Of a stretch of 30,707 bases of DNA, positions 10,506 through 30,707 are shown piece after piece (position 1 is the first letter of the stretch; each line of letters begins with the position of its first letter). The stretch covers positions 1 to 30,707 of IMG/VR virus record IMGVR_UViG_3300042090_001485; one strand, 5' to 3'. This DNA comes from a virus. The translations under genes and the position numbers were made by a program. The notes beneath the pieces are model-generated. The model was not told the DNA's origin, made no database searches, and worked only from the letters and a program-made list of their open reading frames with translations.

Positions 10506-12115
10506 CTCGATCTCCTGTCACGGCGCACAAAGTCCGCGCCTCCCCGGCCTGCGCCGGCTAAAATCTCTTCCCGCCCAAACCCCTGCTCGCGTCCGCCCAC
10601 CTGCACAGGGCTCGATGCGATCGCGGCCTGGAAGTTGTAGTTGCGCGCCAACTGCACAGCGCCTTGCAGCGCGTCGGCCAGGTCATCCTTGATCTTGCCC
10701 AGGAACAGCAACTGTGAAATCAGCGTCTTTTGCGTGCCATCCAGGCAGAAGCGGATGGTTCCGTTCTCAACCAGCGGGCTCATGGTCGAGATGCGCAGAA
10801 ACTTATCTGTCAGGTTGGTGATGCCGACGACATTGAGATAGCGCCCGCTGAGCCGCGAAGCCTCGTCGAGCGCTTGTTTCAGCGCGGCCTGGTATGCCTG
10901 ATCCTCGATGCCGATCACCATCGGCTGCTCTTCGTCGGCGCGCCGCAGCATGAAATCGACCTGCTGCGTGAACGGCATGCGATCCTGCTCGGCGCGCGTC
11001 ACATAGATAAAGCCCTGCGCATCGACGTCGATGGTGACGGACGCGAAGAAGTCCGCGGTCGCCTTCTGCGAGATGGCCGGATCGTTGTAGGTCATCTTCA
11101 CCGTGGGCTTGCCGGCGAGCTCCTCGCGGCGGAAGGCGTGGCGCGTGATCCACTCCTCTTTGAAGACCTGTGTCGATTCCGAGATGGGCAGGTTGCGAAA
11201 CTCCTGATTGAACATCACCGAACCGATCACATCTTCTTTTTCGCGCAGCGACTCGATATCCCACTTCGCCGGCCACAGCACCGACTCGGGCGCCCACTCC
11301 TGATCGACCGCCATATAGCGGTGCTTCACGAACTTCTTGAATTTCTCCGGATCGAGCAGCTTGGCCAGCAGCCCGTCATAGTGGAGGATAGTGCCGATTA
11401 CAAACACCTGGCATTTCTTGCCCAGGTTGAGCACCGTGCCCGTGAACCAGCGTTCCAGCTTGTCGCGGGTTTCGGGATTGTCGACGTCCTCTTCGTTCTC
11501 CATGTCGTCGCAGATGACCAGATCCGGCCGGTAAAGCCGGAAGCGCAGCCCGCGCAGGCTCTGCCCCGCGCCGCGCGCGGCGAGGGTGATGCCCGTCGTC
11601 GTGCGGCAATCGTTGATATCCCACTTCCGGTCACCCTGCAGGCTGCCGAAGTCCGCGATCAGCGCAGAGTTTGACTCGATCTCTTCCTTCACCGCGGCGA
11701 GCTGCAGCGCCGCCTGGGGCTGGGTGTCCGAGATGAGCACGATGAACCGCCGCAGCTTGTAGCACACGCAATAGAGAACAAAGATCACCGATACGCAGGT
11801 CGATTTGGCATGCTCGCGGGGTGCGGCGATCGCGGCGTATTGCTCGGTCAGCAGCGTCTGGTAGAGTTCGCGGTGGAACTCCGCCGGCTCAATGATCGCG
11901 CCCGTCTGCTGATCGACCATGAAGTGGCGCATGTACTTGACCGCGAAGTTGGTGATGTCGGTCGCCAGCGCCCAAGCCTGGTCGAGAACCTGGCCGGCGT
12001 CTTTCTTCTCCGGGCGCAGCTCCCCCGGCACCACGCCGAAGACGGCGCGCAGCCGGGCAGCCGCATCCTCACGCTGCTGACGCTTCGATTTGTTTTGCGA
12101 AACTTTCAGCGCCAT
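10496..12115 (-). CDS. Terminase large subunit (Mu gp28 type)
   Basis: The product is 539 aa. The ATPase half has a variant Walker A, APREHAKS (residues 98-105, K104), and a Walker B strand ending in ICDDMENEED (residues 201-210). The nuclease half shows the spaced acidic residues of the RNase H-like fold: D345 (TYNDPAIS), E404 (IGIEDQAYQ) and D477/D478 (KIKDDLADA). The enzyme pumps DNA into the prohead and cuts it; in Mu-type phages packaging starts inside the phage end and takes in host DNA. The start lies inside the upstream small-terminase gene, overlapping by 47 bp, and the stop overlaps the portal start. Confidence 0.92.
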   Translation of the reverse strand: MALKVSQNKSKRQQREDAAARLRAVFGVVPGELRPEKKDAGQVLDQAWALATDITNFAVKYMRHFMVDQQTGAIIEPAEFHRELYQTLLTEQYAAIAAPREHAKSTCVSVIFVLYCVCYKLRRFIVLISDTQPQAALQLAAVKEEIESNSALIADFGSLQGDRKWDINDCRTTTGITLAARGAGQSLRGLRFRLYRPDLVICDDMENEEDVDNPETRDKLERWFTGTVLNLGKKCQVFVIGTILHYDGLLAKLLDPEKFKKFVKHRYMAVDQEWAPESVLWPAKWDIESLREKEDVIGSVMFNQEFRNLPISESTQVFKEEWITRHAFRREELAGKPTVKMTYNDPAISQKATADFFASVTIDVDAQGFIYVTRAEQDRMPFTQQVDFMLRRADEEQPMVIGIEDQAYQAALKQALDEASRLSGRYLNVVGITNLTDKFLRISTMSPLVENGTIRFCLDGTQKTLISQLLFLGKIKDDLADALQGAVQLARNYNFQAAIASSPVQVGGREQGFGREEILAGAGRGGADFVRRDRRSRWA

Positions 12116-17891: not shown

Positions 17892-18398
17892 TCAGGCAAT
17901 TTTCAAAAGAGTTTTCGCCATCGACTCATCGCATCTTCCCTCCTCTTTGCAGTGCTCATAGAGAGCCGCAACCAGCTCCGCGAGCTTCCGAATCGGGATA
18001 TGTTGTTTTCTGCGCTTCAATTCGCGGTCGAATGTTTCCATGACATCGGCGAGCAGCTTGTGATCTAGCGCACTTAAATCTTCAGTGCGCTCTCTTCTCG
18101 CGGGCGGTTTTCCTTCAGCCTTTAGCCGCGCTGCAAACTTCGCGCCAGCTTGCTCGTACCACCATTGCCGGTCCTCGACTGAGATGTCGCCAATCTTCAT
18201 GAGGGCGAGCGGCGGCGGTCGATATTTACCCCGTTCCCATTTAGAGAGAACCGGCTGCGAGATGCCTACCAGCGACGCAAATGTTCTCTGATCGAGGCGC
18301 AGGCGATCTTCCCGGATCGCGCGAAGGCGCTCATGGATCAAGGCTGAGTCAAAGTGAATATTTCTCTTGACAGTTTGAGTCATTTTGAATATGCTCAT
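17892..18398 (-). CDS. XRE-type phage repressor
   Basis: The product is about 168 aa if it starts at the ATG at 18398 (MSIFKMTQTV); the next ATG is at 18383. Earlier in-frame codons would overlap the early gene and are less likely. Residues 20-65 form an XRE helix-turn-helix: RLRAIREDRLRLDQRTFASL and SQPVLSKWERGKYRPP. The C-terminal part is helical and charged (RELKRRKQHIPIRKLAELVA). It is transcribed away from the early operon and its start shares a 14-bp dyad with the first early gene, so it most likely represses early transcription. There is no LexA/S24-type protease domain. No ribosome binding site precedes it. Confidence 0.8.
   Translation of the reverse strand: MSIFKMTQTVKRNIHFDSALIHERLRAIREDRLRLDQRTFASLVGISQPVLSKWERGKYRPPPLALMKIGDISVEDRQWWYEQAGAKFAARLKAEGKPPARRERTEDLSALDHKLLADVMETFDRELKRRKQHIPIRKLAELVAALYEHCKEEGRCDESMAKTLLKIA
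18367..18395 (+). promoter_or_regulatory. Early promoter
   Basis: A perfect -35 box TTGACA (18367-18372) and a 17-bp spacer precede TATGCT (18390-18395), a fair -10 box. Transcription would begin near 18402, two or three bases before the ATG at 18405, so the first early mRNA may be leaderless. The promoter lies inside the 5' end of the repressor gene on the other strand. Confidence 0.65.
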
Positions 18399-18408
18399 TT
18401 CGCAATGA
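18395..18408. promoter_or_regulatory. Putative operator spanning both start codons
   Basis: TCATT-TCGC-AATGA is a dyad whose arms contain the repressor ATG (complement of CAT, 18396-18398) and the first early ATG (18405-18407). A second TCATTT lies 15 bp to the left (18380-18385). Binding here would cover the early start site and the repressor 5' end. Confidence 0.5.
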
Positions 18409-18626
18409 ACACTTTGGACTCCAACCTTATCAAACTCAGACGCCGATTTCGCGGGCGGTCGCCATATTACGGCTTTTATTCCGAGGTGGCAAGAGATCTC
18501 GGCACCTGGCCCAGCCATGTGCGCCGAGTCTTCTTTGGCCAAACCACGTCTGAACGCGTTGCAAAGGCCATCATCGCCGCGGTCGAAGGCAGGGACTCAG
18601 AAAGCAAAGGAAGACGCGCGGCATGA
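18405..18626 (+). CDS. Small Ner/Cro-like DNA-binding protein
   Basis: The product is 73 aa from the ATG at 18405. It holds one copy of a helix-turn-helix-like unit: RFRGRSPYYGFYSEVARDLG then SHVRRVFFGQTTSERVAKAI. The same unit occurs twice in the next gene. It is the first gene of the early operon, opposite the repressor, the place of ner in Mu. A negative regulator of early transcription is the likely role. No ribosome binding site is visible; see the early promoter entry for a possible leaderless start. Confidence 0.65.
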   Translation: MNTLDSNLIKLRRRFRGRSPYYGFYSEVARDLGTWPSHVRRVFFGQTTSERVAKAIIAAVEGRDSESKGRRAA

Positions 18627-19258
18627 ACGACAAATCGTTAGCTTGGGAATATGGCAATGCCGTCTATTTCGCACGGCGCTGGCAGCGCAGGGCTGAAATT
18701 CTTCTCAATAAATTAGAGGCGACGGCACTTGAGGAGGCGGAGATTGATTCCCCTGCCGCGGTTCAGACGGCGGATGCTCCTAATCAGCGGGAGGATGTTT
18801 CTCCGACTTCCGACGCACCCATAACAATTCAACACTATGTGGGGCCGTTGGCTGATCTCAGCCCGCTCGATCTCCGTAAGGGCGCCAAATACTCAGGGCT
18901 CCTCAAACGGGCGGGGCAGTCCATTGGGATCCACCGGACCAGCGTAAACAGAGTGGCCACCGGCGAACGCGTGTCCGACCGGATCATGCAGGCGATTGTG
19001 GCCGAGAGACAGCGCATCGACTCAATCCAGCATGCCGAAACGCCTCCCTTAACCGCTGGAGAACATTCTCAGTTTCGGCGCGGCGGAAGGTATTACGGAC
19101 TTACATCGGCTATCGCAAAAGAGCTAAGACTTTCGGACGGTCATGTTTCACGGGTCCGCACCGGAGAAGAGCGATCGGCCCGCGTGCTCGCAGCGATTCG
19201 CGCAGGGATGGCGCGCATTGACGGAAAACAGGCGGCTAAGAACGGCGCGCAATCATGA
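18623..19258 (+). CDS. DNA-binding protein with two HTH-like repeats
   Basis: The product is 211 aa. After a variable Gln/Pro-rich N-terminal part, two homologous units appear: residues about 85-135 (KGAKYSGLLKRAGQSIGIHR and SVNRVATGERVSDRIMQAIV) and about 150-200 (RGGRYYGLTSAIAKELRLSD and HVSRVRTGEERSARVLAAIR). Both align with the single unit of the preceding gene through 'G..Y.G...A..L......V.RV..GE...R...AI'. It overlaps the preceding gene by 4 bp and the transposase by 4 bp. It probably binds DNA, perhaps as a bivalent regulator of the operon or of transposition. Confidence 0.65.
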   Translation: MNDKSLAWEYGNAVYFARRWQRRAEILLNKLEATALEEAEIDSPAAVQTADAPNQREDVSPTSDAPITIQHYVGPLADLSPLDLRKGAKYSGLLKRAGQSIGIHRTSVNRVATGERVSDRIMQAIVAERQRIDSIQHAETPPLTAGEHSQFRRGGRYYGLTSAIAKELRLSDGHVSRVRTGEERSARVLAAIRAGMARIDGKQAAKNGAQS

Positions 19259-21318
19259 GCGCCCTTCCGCAGCTTGCCCTGGTCGCCCGCACCGAGCAGT
19301 GGCTCTCGGCTGAAGACGCGATGACCGCTTCCGGCTGGTCGCGCGCCACCTTCTTCCGCCGCCGCAGCGAGCTGGTCAGCCGCGAGAACGCCGTCAATGG
19401 CCAGCGCGAATACCTCGCCGCCAGCCTGCCGCAGAAGCCCGCGCCCACGCAGCTCGCCGTGGTGCCGCCGGCCACTCAGCTTGGGCTGCTCTTCGCCAGC
19501 CAGCCCACAGCCTTGGAGCGCATCGTGCTTCCGGATCCAGAATCGCAGCAGCAGGCAGACAAACGCGTCGCCGCCCTCGAACCACTTCTTGACTTCCCCG
19601 ACAATCCCGCCCGCTACACGGCCCTCCAGGTCAACGGCCGCGCCGTTACCAGTCTGGAACGCCTGATCGAATACGTCGCCCTGCAGCAGCAGCAGTCGCC
19701 CCGCACCATCAAAAGATGGCTGGCCGCCTATCGCAGCAACGGCTTCGCTGCCCTGGCCGACCGCATCCGCGCCGACAAGGGCCAGAGCCGCTGGTTCAAC
19801 CGCCATCGCGAGGCCGCTCTCTTCGCCGCCTATCTCTACCTGGTCGAGCGCACGTCGGTCACCTTCGTCTGCCAACAGATCGAGTACGAGCTGGAGATGC
19901 TCAAGATCGCCGCCGATGATCTGCCCAGCCGCGAAACGGTTCGTCTCTTTCTGGCGCAGAACATCTCCCCGGCGATGCGCACCCTGGCCCGCGAAGGCCA
20001 GCGCGCCTATCGCGAGCGCATGGCGCCCTACGTCAGGCGCGGCTATGTCGACGTCCTGGCCAACCAGATCTGGGTGGGCGATCACGCCATCCACGACGTG
20101 GAGATCCAGAACGATCTCTTTGAAGAGGTTCCATTCGGCACACCCGGCCGGTTACGCATTTCCGCATTTGTGGATTACCGCAGCCGCAAGGCGTGGGGCA
20201 CTTGGGCGTGGGAAGGCAGCTCCCGCTCCATCGCCGCCACCATGCTGCGCGCCATGCTTGAAGTGGGACCGCCTGAAGGGATCTACGTCGACAACGGCAA
20301 GGACTACAAGAAGGTCGCCAAAGGCGCGATCCATGGTTCTGAACTGCCCGCGATCGGCGACGACGACGCCAAGGCCCCGCAGACCTGGTACGACGACGAA
20401 TACAAGCGCATCGAGCGCACCGGCCTGCTGGCGCGCCTGGGCATCGCGGTCACGCATTGCATCCCGCGCCATCCGCAATCGAAGCACGTCGAGCGGTTCT
20501 TCCGCACCATGCACGAGCGTTTTGATGCGGTGCACTCGACCTACACTTCGGGCTCGCCGTTCACGCGCCCCGAGGCCACCGAGGCCGCCATGATGCGCCA
20601 CCGCCGTTTGCTCAAGGCCGGGCGCGTGGAAGAGTCGAACCATCCCACCGCCAGCCGCTTTATTCTCGGCTGCCTTTCGTGGATCCGCGAGTACAACGCC
20701 ACGCCGCAATCCGGCGAAGGCATGGACGGCCGCAGCCCCGATGAAGTCTTCGCCTCCGAGCTGAACCCAAATCAGAAGCCGGTGCCCAATCCTGAAACGC
20801 TGGCGCTGCTGCTCTCGGAGTACGTCAAGCGCGGAGTGCGTGAGTGCGCCGTGCAGTTGAACCACTACCGCTACACGCCGCGGCCTGAAGATCGCATGGC
20901 CTGGGCGGCGATGCACGAAGCCAACGAAGGCGAAGTCCTGGTGGGCTACAACCCCGAGGATCCCGAGTTCGTGGTTGCGCTCACCCTCGATGGCCGCTTC
21001 CTGGCCTGGCTTGAGGCGGAGCCGCTGCTCCGCTTCGCGCCCAACGATCCCGCAACGCAGCGCCAGATCGGCCAGTCGATGGAGATCCGCCGCGGCCTGG
21101 AGAAAGCGCAGAAGGGCGCGCTCAAGGCCATCGCAGCGGGCGCGCGCGGCCTGGGCGCCCGCTCGGCCGAGGAGATGCTCTACGGACGCCTGCAGCTGCC
21201 CGCGGCCACCGGCGCCGTCATCACCCAGCGCAGACCCCGGCTCCGCCCGGACAAAGAAGCCGTGGCGCCTTCGACCGCGGCCGACATCGCCAGCAACTTT
21301 TTGGAGGCGTTGAAATGA
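19255..21318 (+). CDS. MuA-type DDE transposase
   Basis: The product is 687 aa, close to Mu A (663 aa). An N-terminal HTH (residues 18-38, AEDAMTASGWSRATFFRRRS) is followed by further DNA-binding helices (residues 145-185). The catalytic RNase H-like core shows D276 (IWVGDHAIHD), D346 (IYVDNGKDYK) and E413 (SKHVERFFRTMH), matching the DDE triad. Residues about 540-625 form the Mu-type C-terminal beta domain (WAAMHEANEGEVLVGYN), and the tail is basic and likely binds the B protein. It joins phage ends to target DNA during integration and replication. It overlaps both neighbours by 4 bp. Confidence 0.93.
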   Translation: MSALPQLALVARTEQWLSAEDAMTASGWSRATFFRRRSELVSRENAVNGQREYLAASLPQKPAPTQLAVVPPATQLGLLFASQPTALERIVLPDPESQQQADKRVAALEPLLDFPDNPARYTALQVNGRAVTSLERLIEYVALQQQQSPRTIKRWLAAYRSNGFAALADRIRADKGQSRWFNRHREAALFAAYLYLVERTSVTFVCQQIEYELEMLKIAADDLPSRETVRLFLAQNISPAMRTLAREGQRAYRERMAPYVRRGYVDVLANQIWVGDHAIHDVEIQNDLFEEVPFGTPGRLRISAFVDYRSRKAWGTWAWEGSSRSIAATMLRAMLEVGPPEGIYVDNGKDYKKVAKGAIHGSELPAIGDDDAKAPQTWYDDEYKRIERTGLLARLGIAVTHCIPRHPQSKHVERFFRTMHERFDAVHSTYTSGSPFTRPEATEAAMMRHRRLLKAGRVEESNHPTASRFILGCLSWIREYNATPQSGEGMDGRSPDEVFASELNPNQKPVPNPETLALLLSEYVKRGVRECAVQLNHYRYTPRPEDRMAWAAMHEANEGEVLVGYNPEDPEFVVALTLDGRFLAWLEAEPLLRFAPNDPATQRQIGQSMEIRRGLEKAQKGALKAIAAGARGLGARSAEEMLYGRLQLPAATGAVITQRRPRLRPDKEAVAPSTAADIASNFLEALK

Positions 21319-22340
21319 TGGTTCGCGACACAGCAGGGAATCGCGCCGCATTGGCTGAAGACGCCGATCGCGATGCCGAGATGGTGAAGCGCGTAGATGA
21401 CTACATGGCCCGCACCGGCCTTTCGCATCCTGAATTTGCGCGCCGCGTCGGCTACAGCGATGTCACCCTGCGTATGTTTCTCAATGGCAGTTATCACAAC
21501 TGCTCCCGCTCGGCCGACCAGCTGGTGAAGGCGCTCACCACGTTTATGGATACACATCCGGTCGCGGTGGCCACCCGCGCCGTGGGCGACTTGTATGAGA
21601 CCGCCAACGTCCGCGCCATCCAGGAGACGTTTGAGAAGTTGCTGCCGCGCCCCGTGGCCTACATGATCTACGCGCCGCCGGGATCGCAGAAGTCTTTTGT
21701 CCTGGAACACCAGGTGGCGCAGCTCAACGCCCGCGAGGTGGCCAACGCCGAAGGCCGCCGCGCCTTCTACGTCTACGCCCGCGCCAACATCCGGCCCCGC
21801 GATCTGATGCGCCGCGTGGCCCTGGCCTGCGGCTGCCGCACTTCCAACGATCTCGATCCCATGCTGGCCAACATCCGCTTCGAGTTTCGCCATCACCGCG
21901 TGCTGCTGGTGGTGGATGAAGCCCAGCACCTAAGCCTGGACTGCTTCGAGACCCTGCGCGAGCTGCTGGACCAGCCGCCCTACTTCTCGCTGCTCTTCGC
22001 CGGCTCGCACGATCTCAAGCGCAAGTTCGATGAGTTCAGCGCCACCTTGGAGCAGTGGAACTCCCGCATCATCGCCAAGGTTCGGCTGCCGGGCCTGGAA
22101 CGCAAGGAAGCCCGCGGCATCATCGAGCGCGAGATCGGCGAGCTGCTCAACCAGCGCCGCACCCCCCGTGAAGCCCAGAAGCTCATTGACGAGCTGATTA
22201 AGGGCGCCACCGTCCGCGATGCCTTCGAAGGCAATCGCACCTACATCAACGTCCGCACGCTTACCAACGCTCTCGACCAGATCAAGGCGTCGGCTCAACT
22301 TGCGCAGGGTGCGCCTATTGACGAGGAGAAAATCGCATGA
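21315..22340 (+). CDS. MuB-type transposition ATPase
   Basis: The product is 341 aa. Residues 28-60 form an XRE-like HTH (RTGLSHPEFARRVGYSDVTL). The Walker A position reads APPGSQKS (residues 120-127): K126 is kept, but the glycines at the first and sixth positions are Ala and Gln. Walker B is VLLVVDEAQHL (residues 196-206, D201 E202), and FAGSHDL lies at the sensor position. MuB family proteins bind target DNA, choose the target and activate the transposase. It overlaps the transposase stop by 4 bp and the next start by 4 bp. Confidence 0.9.
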   Translation: MMVRDTAGNRAALAEDADRDAEMVKRVDDYMARTGLSHPEFARRVGYSDVTLRMFLNGSYHNCSRSADQLVKALTTFMDTHPVAVATRAVGDLYETANVRAIQETFEKLLPRPVAYMIYAPPGSQKSFVLEHQVAQLNAREVANAEGRRAFYVYARANIRPRDLMRRVALACGCRTSNDLDPMLANIRFEFRHHRVLLVVDEAQHLSLDCFETLRELLDQPPYFSLLFAGSHDLKRKFDEFSATLEQWNSRIIAKVRLPGLERKEARGIIEREIGELLNQRRTPREAQKLIDELIKGATVRDAFEGNRTYINVRTLTNALDQIKASAQLAQGAPIDEEKIA

Positions 22341-29489: not shown

Positions 29490-29836
29490 CAACAGAGCAA
29501 GCGAAGGCGTTGCTGCTGGGCGCTCTCGTGGACGCAATCCAGGAGAGCGACGACGTTACCGAAGCGGCGCAGGAAATCACGGCCGCGGGCATGACCTTCG
29601 GCATCGATATTTATGTTGCGCTGCAGGTCCGCGCCGACGCTGCGCAGCAGGCTGCCGACGCCGACTTCCTGCGATCCATGCACATCGCGCCGGAAGTTGC
29701 GCCCCCGCCGGTGGCCGTAGCTGCAGCCGCACCGATGGCCGCGCCTCAGCCACCGCCGACTTTGCATTCCATGTCCGCCTGGTCGCTGTTGAAGGCCTTC
29801 GCGCGGGCCTTCGTTTGTGAGGGTCGGCGTATATGA
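29486..29836 (+). CDS. Small Ala/Pro-rich hypothetical protein
   Basis: The product is 116 aa from the ATG at 29486 (AAGGAG upstream), overlapping the preceding stop. An Ala/Glu-rich helical N-terminal half is followed by a Pro/Ala-rich segment (PEVAPPPVAVAAAAPMAAPQ) and a hydrophobic C-terminal helix (WSLLKAFARAFVCEG). No family is recognised. Confidence 0.5.
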   Translation: MTTEQAKALLLGALVDAIQESDDVTEAAQEITAAGMTFGIDIYVALQVRADAAQQAADADFLRSMHIAPEVAPPPVAVAAAAPMAAPQPPPTLHSMSAWSLLKAFARAFVCEGRRI

Positions 29837-30102
29837 GCACCAGGCGCATGCGGATCGGCTTTCGGGTGCCTGAGCAGCTCTTGCTGCCCTGGAGCCCCAA
29901 GGCCACCATCAGCGCGTCGCACGCGGCGGAGTTGCTTGACGTGTCGATCCAGACCGTCTGCCGCATGATTGAAGATGGCTCACTGAAGGCCTACAAGGTC
30001 CGGCCGGATAAGCTCAATGGACCCTGGCGCGTGAACTATGATTCAGTAGTAGCTCACGTCGAGCGGATCCACAAAGAGAACGGCCTGGAAAAGAGGTTCT
30101 GA
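29833..30102 (+). CDS. Excisionase-like HTH protein
   Basis: The product is 89 aa. Residues 25-78 form a MerR/excisionase-type HTH (ATISASHAAELLDVSIQTVC then RMIEDGSLKAYKV and a wing with LNGPWRVNYDSV). Such proteins bind DNA and bend it, and are common at the ends of phage operons. It is the last gene of the overlapping early operon; its stop is followed by a short repeat region. It could control middle transcription or act near the phage end. Confidence 0.7.
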   Translation: MSTRRMRIGFRVPEQLLLPWSPKATISASHAAELLDVSIQTVCRMIEDGSLKAYKVRPDKLNGPWRVNYDSVVAHVERIHKENGLEKRF

Positions 30103-30165: not shown

Positions 30166-30420
30166 ATGGAAAACGAAGTTGCAAAACGGCTCGGGATATC
30201 GGCGGATGACTGGGACATAAACGCTCGCCGGGACGTCGAGGAATCGCCTCTCAATAGCTTTCTGAGAGCCCGTCTGAAAGAGTGGCTTTCGTCGGTGGTT
30301 TCGCCCCTCGATCCAGCCCAAATCACGCACATCGCCCGCGTCGAAACCGCTCGGTCCTACGAGGCTGGGAACACGGCGAAATCGGCCCCGAAATCCGGTC
30401 CGAACTGGCGATCTCTATGA
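30166..30420 (+). CDS. Small hypothetical protein near phage end
   Basis: The product is 84 aa from the ATG at 30166, with AGGA eight bases upstream. It is helical and polar (NEVAKRLGISADDWDINARR), then mixed, with a low-complexity end. Unlike its neighbours it is preceded by a 63-bp gap and does not overlap anything. No family is recognised; it may have its own promoter. Confidence 0.45.
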   Translation: MENEVAKRLGISADDWDINARRDVEESPLNSFLRARLKEWLSSVVSPLDPAQITHIARVETARSYEAGNTAKSAPKSGPNWRSL

Positions 30421-30428
30421 TTTTCCAT

Positions 30429-30642
30429 AGTCTCGCCCGTGAGACTGCCTGGTCGCCCGATTTGGCGTTTTTTGGATATGAGACTGAGCGCCCCGAAAAC
30501 GCTCTCGCCCGCGTCAAAATTGGCGATTCTGGGTTTTCCACTGTTCGGGTTTTGTGGGGTTTTCTCCGGCAGTCTCATGAGACTCAGATGTTCGGCGACG
30601 CTGGACGAAGAATCAATAACTTACGCCTCGAAAACCAGTCTC
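30429..30642. repeat. AGTCTC motif cluster, putative transposase-binding sites
   Basis: Six exact copies of the hexamer lie here: AGTCTC at 30429, 30571 and 30637 and its complement GAGACT at 30441, 30480 and 30579. CAGTCTCACGGG is shared by the site at 30637 and the complement of the site at 30441. A seventh, weaker site, GCTCTCGCCC, is near 30501. The copies at 30571 and 30579 form the perfect palindrome AGTCTCATGAGACT. No credible gene covers 30421-30707. In Mu-type phages the transposase binds several such repeats at each phage end, so the right end is probably close to or just beyond the last copy. Confidence 0.6.
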
Positions 30643-30707
30643 ACGGGGTCAATCCATGACACGTAATTCCTGCACTCTGTATCGCCGGATTTGTTGTGGA
30701 AAACCGC

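Follow-up and report, generated by a model that had tools for sequence, protein, structure and literature searches.

The cluster of AGTCTC hexamers at positions 30429-30642 of the window (the whole 30,707-nt stretch of viral DNA analysed here, IMG/VR record IMGVR_UViG_3300042090_001485) is in our view likely to be a transpositional enhancer of the Mu type situated beside the left phage end, and the N-terminal domain of the phage transposase probably binds it. Judged from the sequences, the best reading is that this enhancer stands apart from the repressor region and that its specificity evolves fast. In phage Mu the transposase domain Iα binds an internal enhancer, building the L-E-R synapse (PMC3362531, PMC3562280). 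Since the N-terminal domain of the transposase encoded in the window weakly resembles Iα, the array was read as an enhancer.

AGTCTC occurs seven times in the 30.7-kb window, which is below the 11.65 copies expected by chance. Six of the seven copies fall within 30429-30642, at 30429(+), 30441(-), 30480(-), 30571(+), 30579(-) and 30637(+), and the remaining one is located at 196. Thus, with the hexamer being rarer than expected window-wide, the signal lies in its clustering and not in its abundance. Other hexamers, all of them G+C-rich, clustered in 27 of 100 dinucleotide shuffles, which could suggest a chance grouping of a hexamer. However, a cluster of six AGTCTC copies in 220 bp appeared in none of these 100 shuffles, and the array is conserved position by position in related phages. 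This conserved spacing refutes chance, to which we assign practically no weight. The six-hexamer cluster on both strands described in the original prediction is therefore real; its longer shared core, CAGTCTCACGGG, was counted exactly twice in the window, on opposite strands, and the motif is not equally frequent throughout the window.

Comparison with relatives refined the regular sites to RTGAGACTS, found at 30439(+), 30478(+), 30577(+) and 30636(-); a further copy, in mirror orientation, starts the pair at 30570(-). The sequence reveals four fixed-position sites, of which S1, S2 and S3 are direct and S4 is inverted, with an IHF-type site between S3 and S4. The core of S1 (GTGAGACTG, 30439..30447, +) lies about 347 bp from the extrapolated phage end, as in the relatives. 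S2 (ATGAGACTG, 30478..30486, +) follows 39 bp after S1, and S3 (ATGAGACTC, 30577..30585, +) 99 bp after S2. The mirror copy of S3 (ATGAGACTG, 30570..30578, -) makes with it the palindrome AGTCTCATGAGACT, and a palindromic S3 is also present in L132 and L134. The putative IHF site AATCAATAACTTA (WATCAANNNNTTR; 30611..30623, +) matches the consensus and is placed alike in most relatives, which also support the inverted S4 (GTGAGACTG, 30636..30644, -). With the end extrapolated, the array falls 150-350 bp from the left (early-gene) end, on the inner side of the end-type sites L2 and L1. The AGTCTC copy at 30429..30434 (+), which comes directly after CATAG, may not be a site, since AGTCTC occurs at this place in L010/L058 as well, a phage with a different hexamer in its array. 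In addition, an element TTTTCCATAG precedes S1 (30421..30430, +) and is present in several relatives, and TTTTTCATAG occurs at the opposite end too in some phages. An 84-aa ORF (30166-30420) between the HTH_17 gene and the array had no match among the relatives examined or the protein families.

The array recurs in twelve relatives with almost invariant distances and, as a rule, an IHF-type site, but with another site sequence in most lineages. The repeated site is GTTGCACTTGGAT in L058, AGTGGACTTGGATT in L061, AGTTGCGTTGGATT in L062, TTCCGTTGGATT in L065, L089, L134 and L139, GGCACTTGGATT in L126, GTCCGTTGGATT in L132, GTCGCTAGGATT in L133, AGTTGGGTTGGATT in L128 and TGAGACT in L064. The cores are positioned at about 344-357 (S1), 303-312 (S2), 204-209 (S3) and 147-157 bp (inverted S4) from the end, and the IHF consensus mostly at 173-176 bp; the IHF-type site is inverted in L065, and a search for the IHF pattern in L064 gave no match. 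Across six loci no convincing array sites were detected elsewhere in the phages. The sites were restricted to L in G003 and G014, and all four exact site matches in the 4.1-Mb chromosome G448 fell within the array. The claim of a new recognition sequence was borne out in that the sequence is peculiar to this lineage of phages. The relatives are phages of soil bacteria, and some are prophages from the genome family of an Acidobacteriaceae MAG. A scan with the single HTH_17 protein returned no relatives, whereas an HTH_17 alignment did find them, and a DNA search of phage records gave no matches.

In relatives the true phage ends carry a second motif, TGACACGTAATTCC, which was recognised at their L ends. 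G003, G006, G011 and G014 have two copies of it (L1 and L2) at a spacing of 106 bp at the early end, and the other end, where available, carries tandem copies 23 bp apart and an inverted copy. In five prophages matching 5-bp duplications (CTTTT, CTCAC, AGAGA, TTGGA and TCCAT) were found outside ..CACA and TGTGG.., that is, TG..CA ends with a 5-bp target duplication, as in Mu-like phages. The original prediction had proposed looking for such duplications, and they were found at ends that carry the second motif. G014 gave no 5-bp target duplication in its flanks (L046 1-120 and L033 6880-6985), and G750 gave one chance-like match; the G014 contig may join different insertions or originate from packaged phage DNA. 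The other end of the window's phage is off the contig, and the evidence on ends comes from the related prophages. Only the inner end-type transposase site, L2 (TGACACGTAATTCC, 30658..30671, +), lies inside the window. Extrapolation from the relatives places the outer copy L1 at about 30764 and the phage end at about 30787, both beyond the window, which would lack about 80 bp at this end.

These observations bear on the idea that the AGTCTC sites are end-binding sites of the transposase and mark the phage end. The sites are indeed near the contig end, outside genes and on both strands. However, the relatives' ends, fixed by the 5-bp duplications, lie elsewhere and carry a different motif at both termini, whereas the array motif, which had been expected at the opposite end as well, is absent there. 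Transposase end sites should share one motif at both termini, and this is true of the TGACACGTAATTCC-type sites and not of the array. In the relatives these two observations refute the idea. Since the ends carry another motif and the phage end falls, by extrapolation, about 80 bp past the contig, the cluster does not mark it, and an end-binding role of these sites is very improbable. Moreover, the side predicted to be the right phage end would correspond, by comparison with Mu, to the left (early-gene) end, although it is at the contig's right. The prediction that the transposase should bind here stood in part: the transposase is the foremost candidate for binding the array, but the sites are not end-binding and were not confirmed to sit exactly where it should bind. 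The end motif itself varies by lineage (TGACACGTAATTCC, TGCAATACAATTCC, TGTAATTTAATTT and CTCTCATTTAATTCC at the L ends of L070, L079, L083, L128 and L132), and the variants keep AATTCC-like halves and a spacing of 104-106 bp.

The window encodes a MuA-like transposase of 687 aa (19255..21318, +; PHROG transposase, E 5e-73) and a MuB-like AAA+ transposition protein (21315..22340, +; PHROG transposition protein, E 3e-25). It thus has the DDE (rve) transposase with a MuB-type AAA+ partner that characterises Mu-like phages; the Pfam rve and Mu-transpos_C matches of the transposase were under their cut-offs. An XRE-like repressor is encoded at 17892-18542 (-), the early genes are oriented to the right, in the direction of the cluster, and the head genes (portal, terminase, head protease) are on the minus strand. 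Upstream of the transposase (18354-19258) we noted genes encoding repeated HTH units, YYGL..VAxxLGLxxxxVSxVxxG, which occur in relatives too.

The transposases of this group split in two, with and without an HTH domain some 65 residues long at the N terminus. In the window it is a winged-HTH-like domain at residues 1-62 (19255..19440, +), which we propose to be enhancer-binding. Its resemblance to MuA Iα is weak (hhalign E 7e-4, 24% over 54 columns), and a comparison with PDB structures listed 1TNS (Z 3.3, 26% over 49 residues) among other winged-HTH folds (MerR- and Xis-like). No Pfam match was obtained, PDB sequence profiles likewise gave no meaningful match, and Foldseek returned weak MerR/BldC-like matches at best.

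A stronger link between this domain and the array than their joint occurrence was found in its putative recognition helix, SRATFFRRRSEL (residues 29-40, 19339..19374, +; predicted helix 30-39), which covaries with the site sequence. Among 11 phages the distance between helices predicted the distance between site sequences (Mantel r = 0.765, P = 5e-5), and removal of the overall transposase distance left a partial correlation of 0.796. At the same time, neither the remainder of the N-domain (0.09) nor the remainder of the transposase (0.01) covaried with the sites. The other proteins compared, without L064, gave no significant correlation (TnpB 0.17, GemA-like -0.01, the repressor 0.18 with n = 8, HTH_17 0.10-0.19). 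Thus, the site sequence tracks the helix and no other protein among those tested. Outside the domain, the window and L058 share about 90% identity, but their sites differ at about three of the seven variable positions. Helices of the DRWLR type are paired with CCG, RRTFF/RRKFF with CAC and RATF(F/Y)RR with GAGAC. Before the L064 end was known, we predicted that a RATFFRRR-type helix, the type of the window, would pair with GAGACT, and named L064 among the phages concerned; this was confirmed by L064 (SRATFYRRSAEL), which has TGAGACT at five of five positions. The end motif of L064 differs.

The domain and the array also tended to occur together. The array was present in all domain-bearing phages whose L end could be mapped (the window, L058, L061, L062, L064, L065, L089, L126, L132, L133 and L134), of which L065, L126 and L133 had been found via the array and so are not independent tests of the pairing; this comparison leaves out the divergent domain-bearing L131, L135-L138, L129, L124 and L086, with L ends that were not mappable. 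Among the domain-less phages, the array was absent from L070, L072, L080, L084, L085 and L127 and eroded in L079 and L083. An exception was L128, whose transposase is domain-less, yet whose array is intact; a search of all parts examined, elsewhere in the phage too, revealed no N-domain. Either a second binding protein or a very recent loss of the domain could account for this exception. The L128 array (11523-11729) consists of four identical 14-bp sites. On the phage tree the domain/array trait needs about three changes, which means few independent events. In L139 the array is present, and no transposase was found on the parts examined.

The array might instead be an operator at which the phage repressor or another regulator controls a promoter. 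In Mu, operator and enhancer are reported to coincide; the repressor is very divergent here, and L128, keeping its sites without an N-domain, indicates that a second binder may exist. Against this, about 12 kb separate the repressor gene from the array, which is found at the 3' end of the early gene region, no array site is near the repressor or the early promoter, and the repressor distance showed no significant covariation with the sites, so we regard an operator as unlikely. Still less probable is binding by the neighbouring HTH_17 (excisionase-like) protein or by the tandem-HTH protein upstream of the transposase. The HTH_17 gene (29833-30102) adjoins the array in many relatives, but its helix region is nearly constant in L061, L089 and L128 while their sites differ completely, and its covariation was not significant; the tandem-HTH protein is also encoded by the array-less L070, L072, L085 and L127.

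As a cis element the array accords with a Mu-type enhancer: it lies within the phage close to the left end, is separate from the end sites and contains an IHF-consensus match. In such an enhancer, transposase subunits would hold L1/L2 and the right-end sites through their end-binding domains, and the N-terminal winged-HTH domain would clasp the S sites in a loop bent by IHF. The correct left-enhancer-right complex would in this way form on one phage genome, and the array would stimulate transposition. Given the joint change of helix and sites, the enhancer might additionally mark phage identity and in this way limit cross-pairing with related phages. That the clade as a whole has a dedicated, repressor-independent enhancer, in which the helix and four to five dispersed sites drift in a coupled manner as a self/non-self tag against cross-pairing of ends between related phages resident in the same host, is a tentative proposal that we hold somewhat short of even.

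Enhancer-dependent transposition is known from Mu, whose enhancer contains an IHF site. The nearest known system is the Mu enhancer (IAS; O1-O2), with which the array shares an internal location nearer the left end, an IHF-type site inside and, as we infer here, recognition by an N-terminal domain of the transposase distinct from the domains that bind the ends. The differences concern position (150-350 bp from the end, beside L2), separation from the repressor gene, a fixed layout of four to five strong sites and a sequence that changes from lineage to lineage. The counterpart of Mu attL/attR (L1-L3, R1-R3) is not the AGTCTC cluster but the TGACACGTAATTCC-type motif, which is likewise spaced at L and in close tandem at R, although its sequence differs and two L sites were recognised. 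Repeated transposase end sites are also described for the Pseudomonas D3112 group and Burkholderia KS10, and in the accessible parts of those reports we found no enhancer array with an N-domain partner (PMC4378225, PMC2628397); their transposase match to the window begins past the N-domain. Transposable prophages of Leptospira have MuA-type transposases in non-enteric hosts as well, but those examined were without an enhancer-binding domain, which according to the 2021 survey "so far appears specific to Mu" (PMC8705779), whereas many phages here carry such a domain and its putative sites. No description of such arrays was found in the literature, the coverage of which was incomplete and so gives no proof of novelty.

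Because many phages combine the domain with clearly defined sites, a natural helix-to-site code becomes readable: a site and the helix that most likely reads it change together, giving a natural code for DNA recognition by a transposition machinery. This code makes self-recognition by the enhancer, the concerted change of one helix and several dispersed sites, and domain loss testable, and the helix-site pairs could supply orthogonal transposition parts.

Several further features of the L ends were observed. The window has lost the TTGGATT half kept by most relatives, a point that weighs against the enhancer reading. Matches to the IHF pattern in L141, L143, L145 and L146 were rejected as not being convincing arrays. 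Finally, TTTTCCACA-like elements resembling DnaA boxes are located at 30534-30542 and 30695-30703 of the window and at the L ends of most relatives, in opposite orientations at a fixed distance of about 252 and 91 bp from the end, and occur in array-less phages too.
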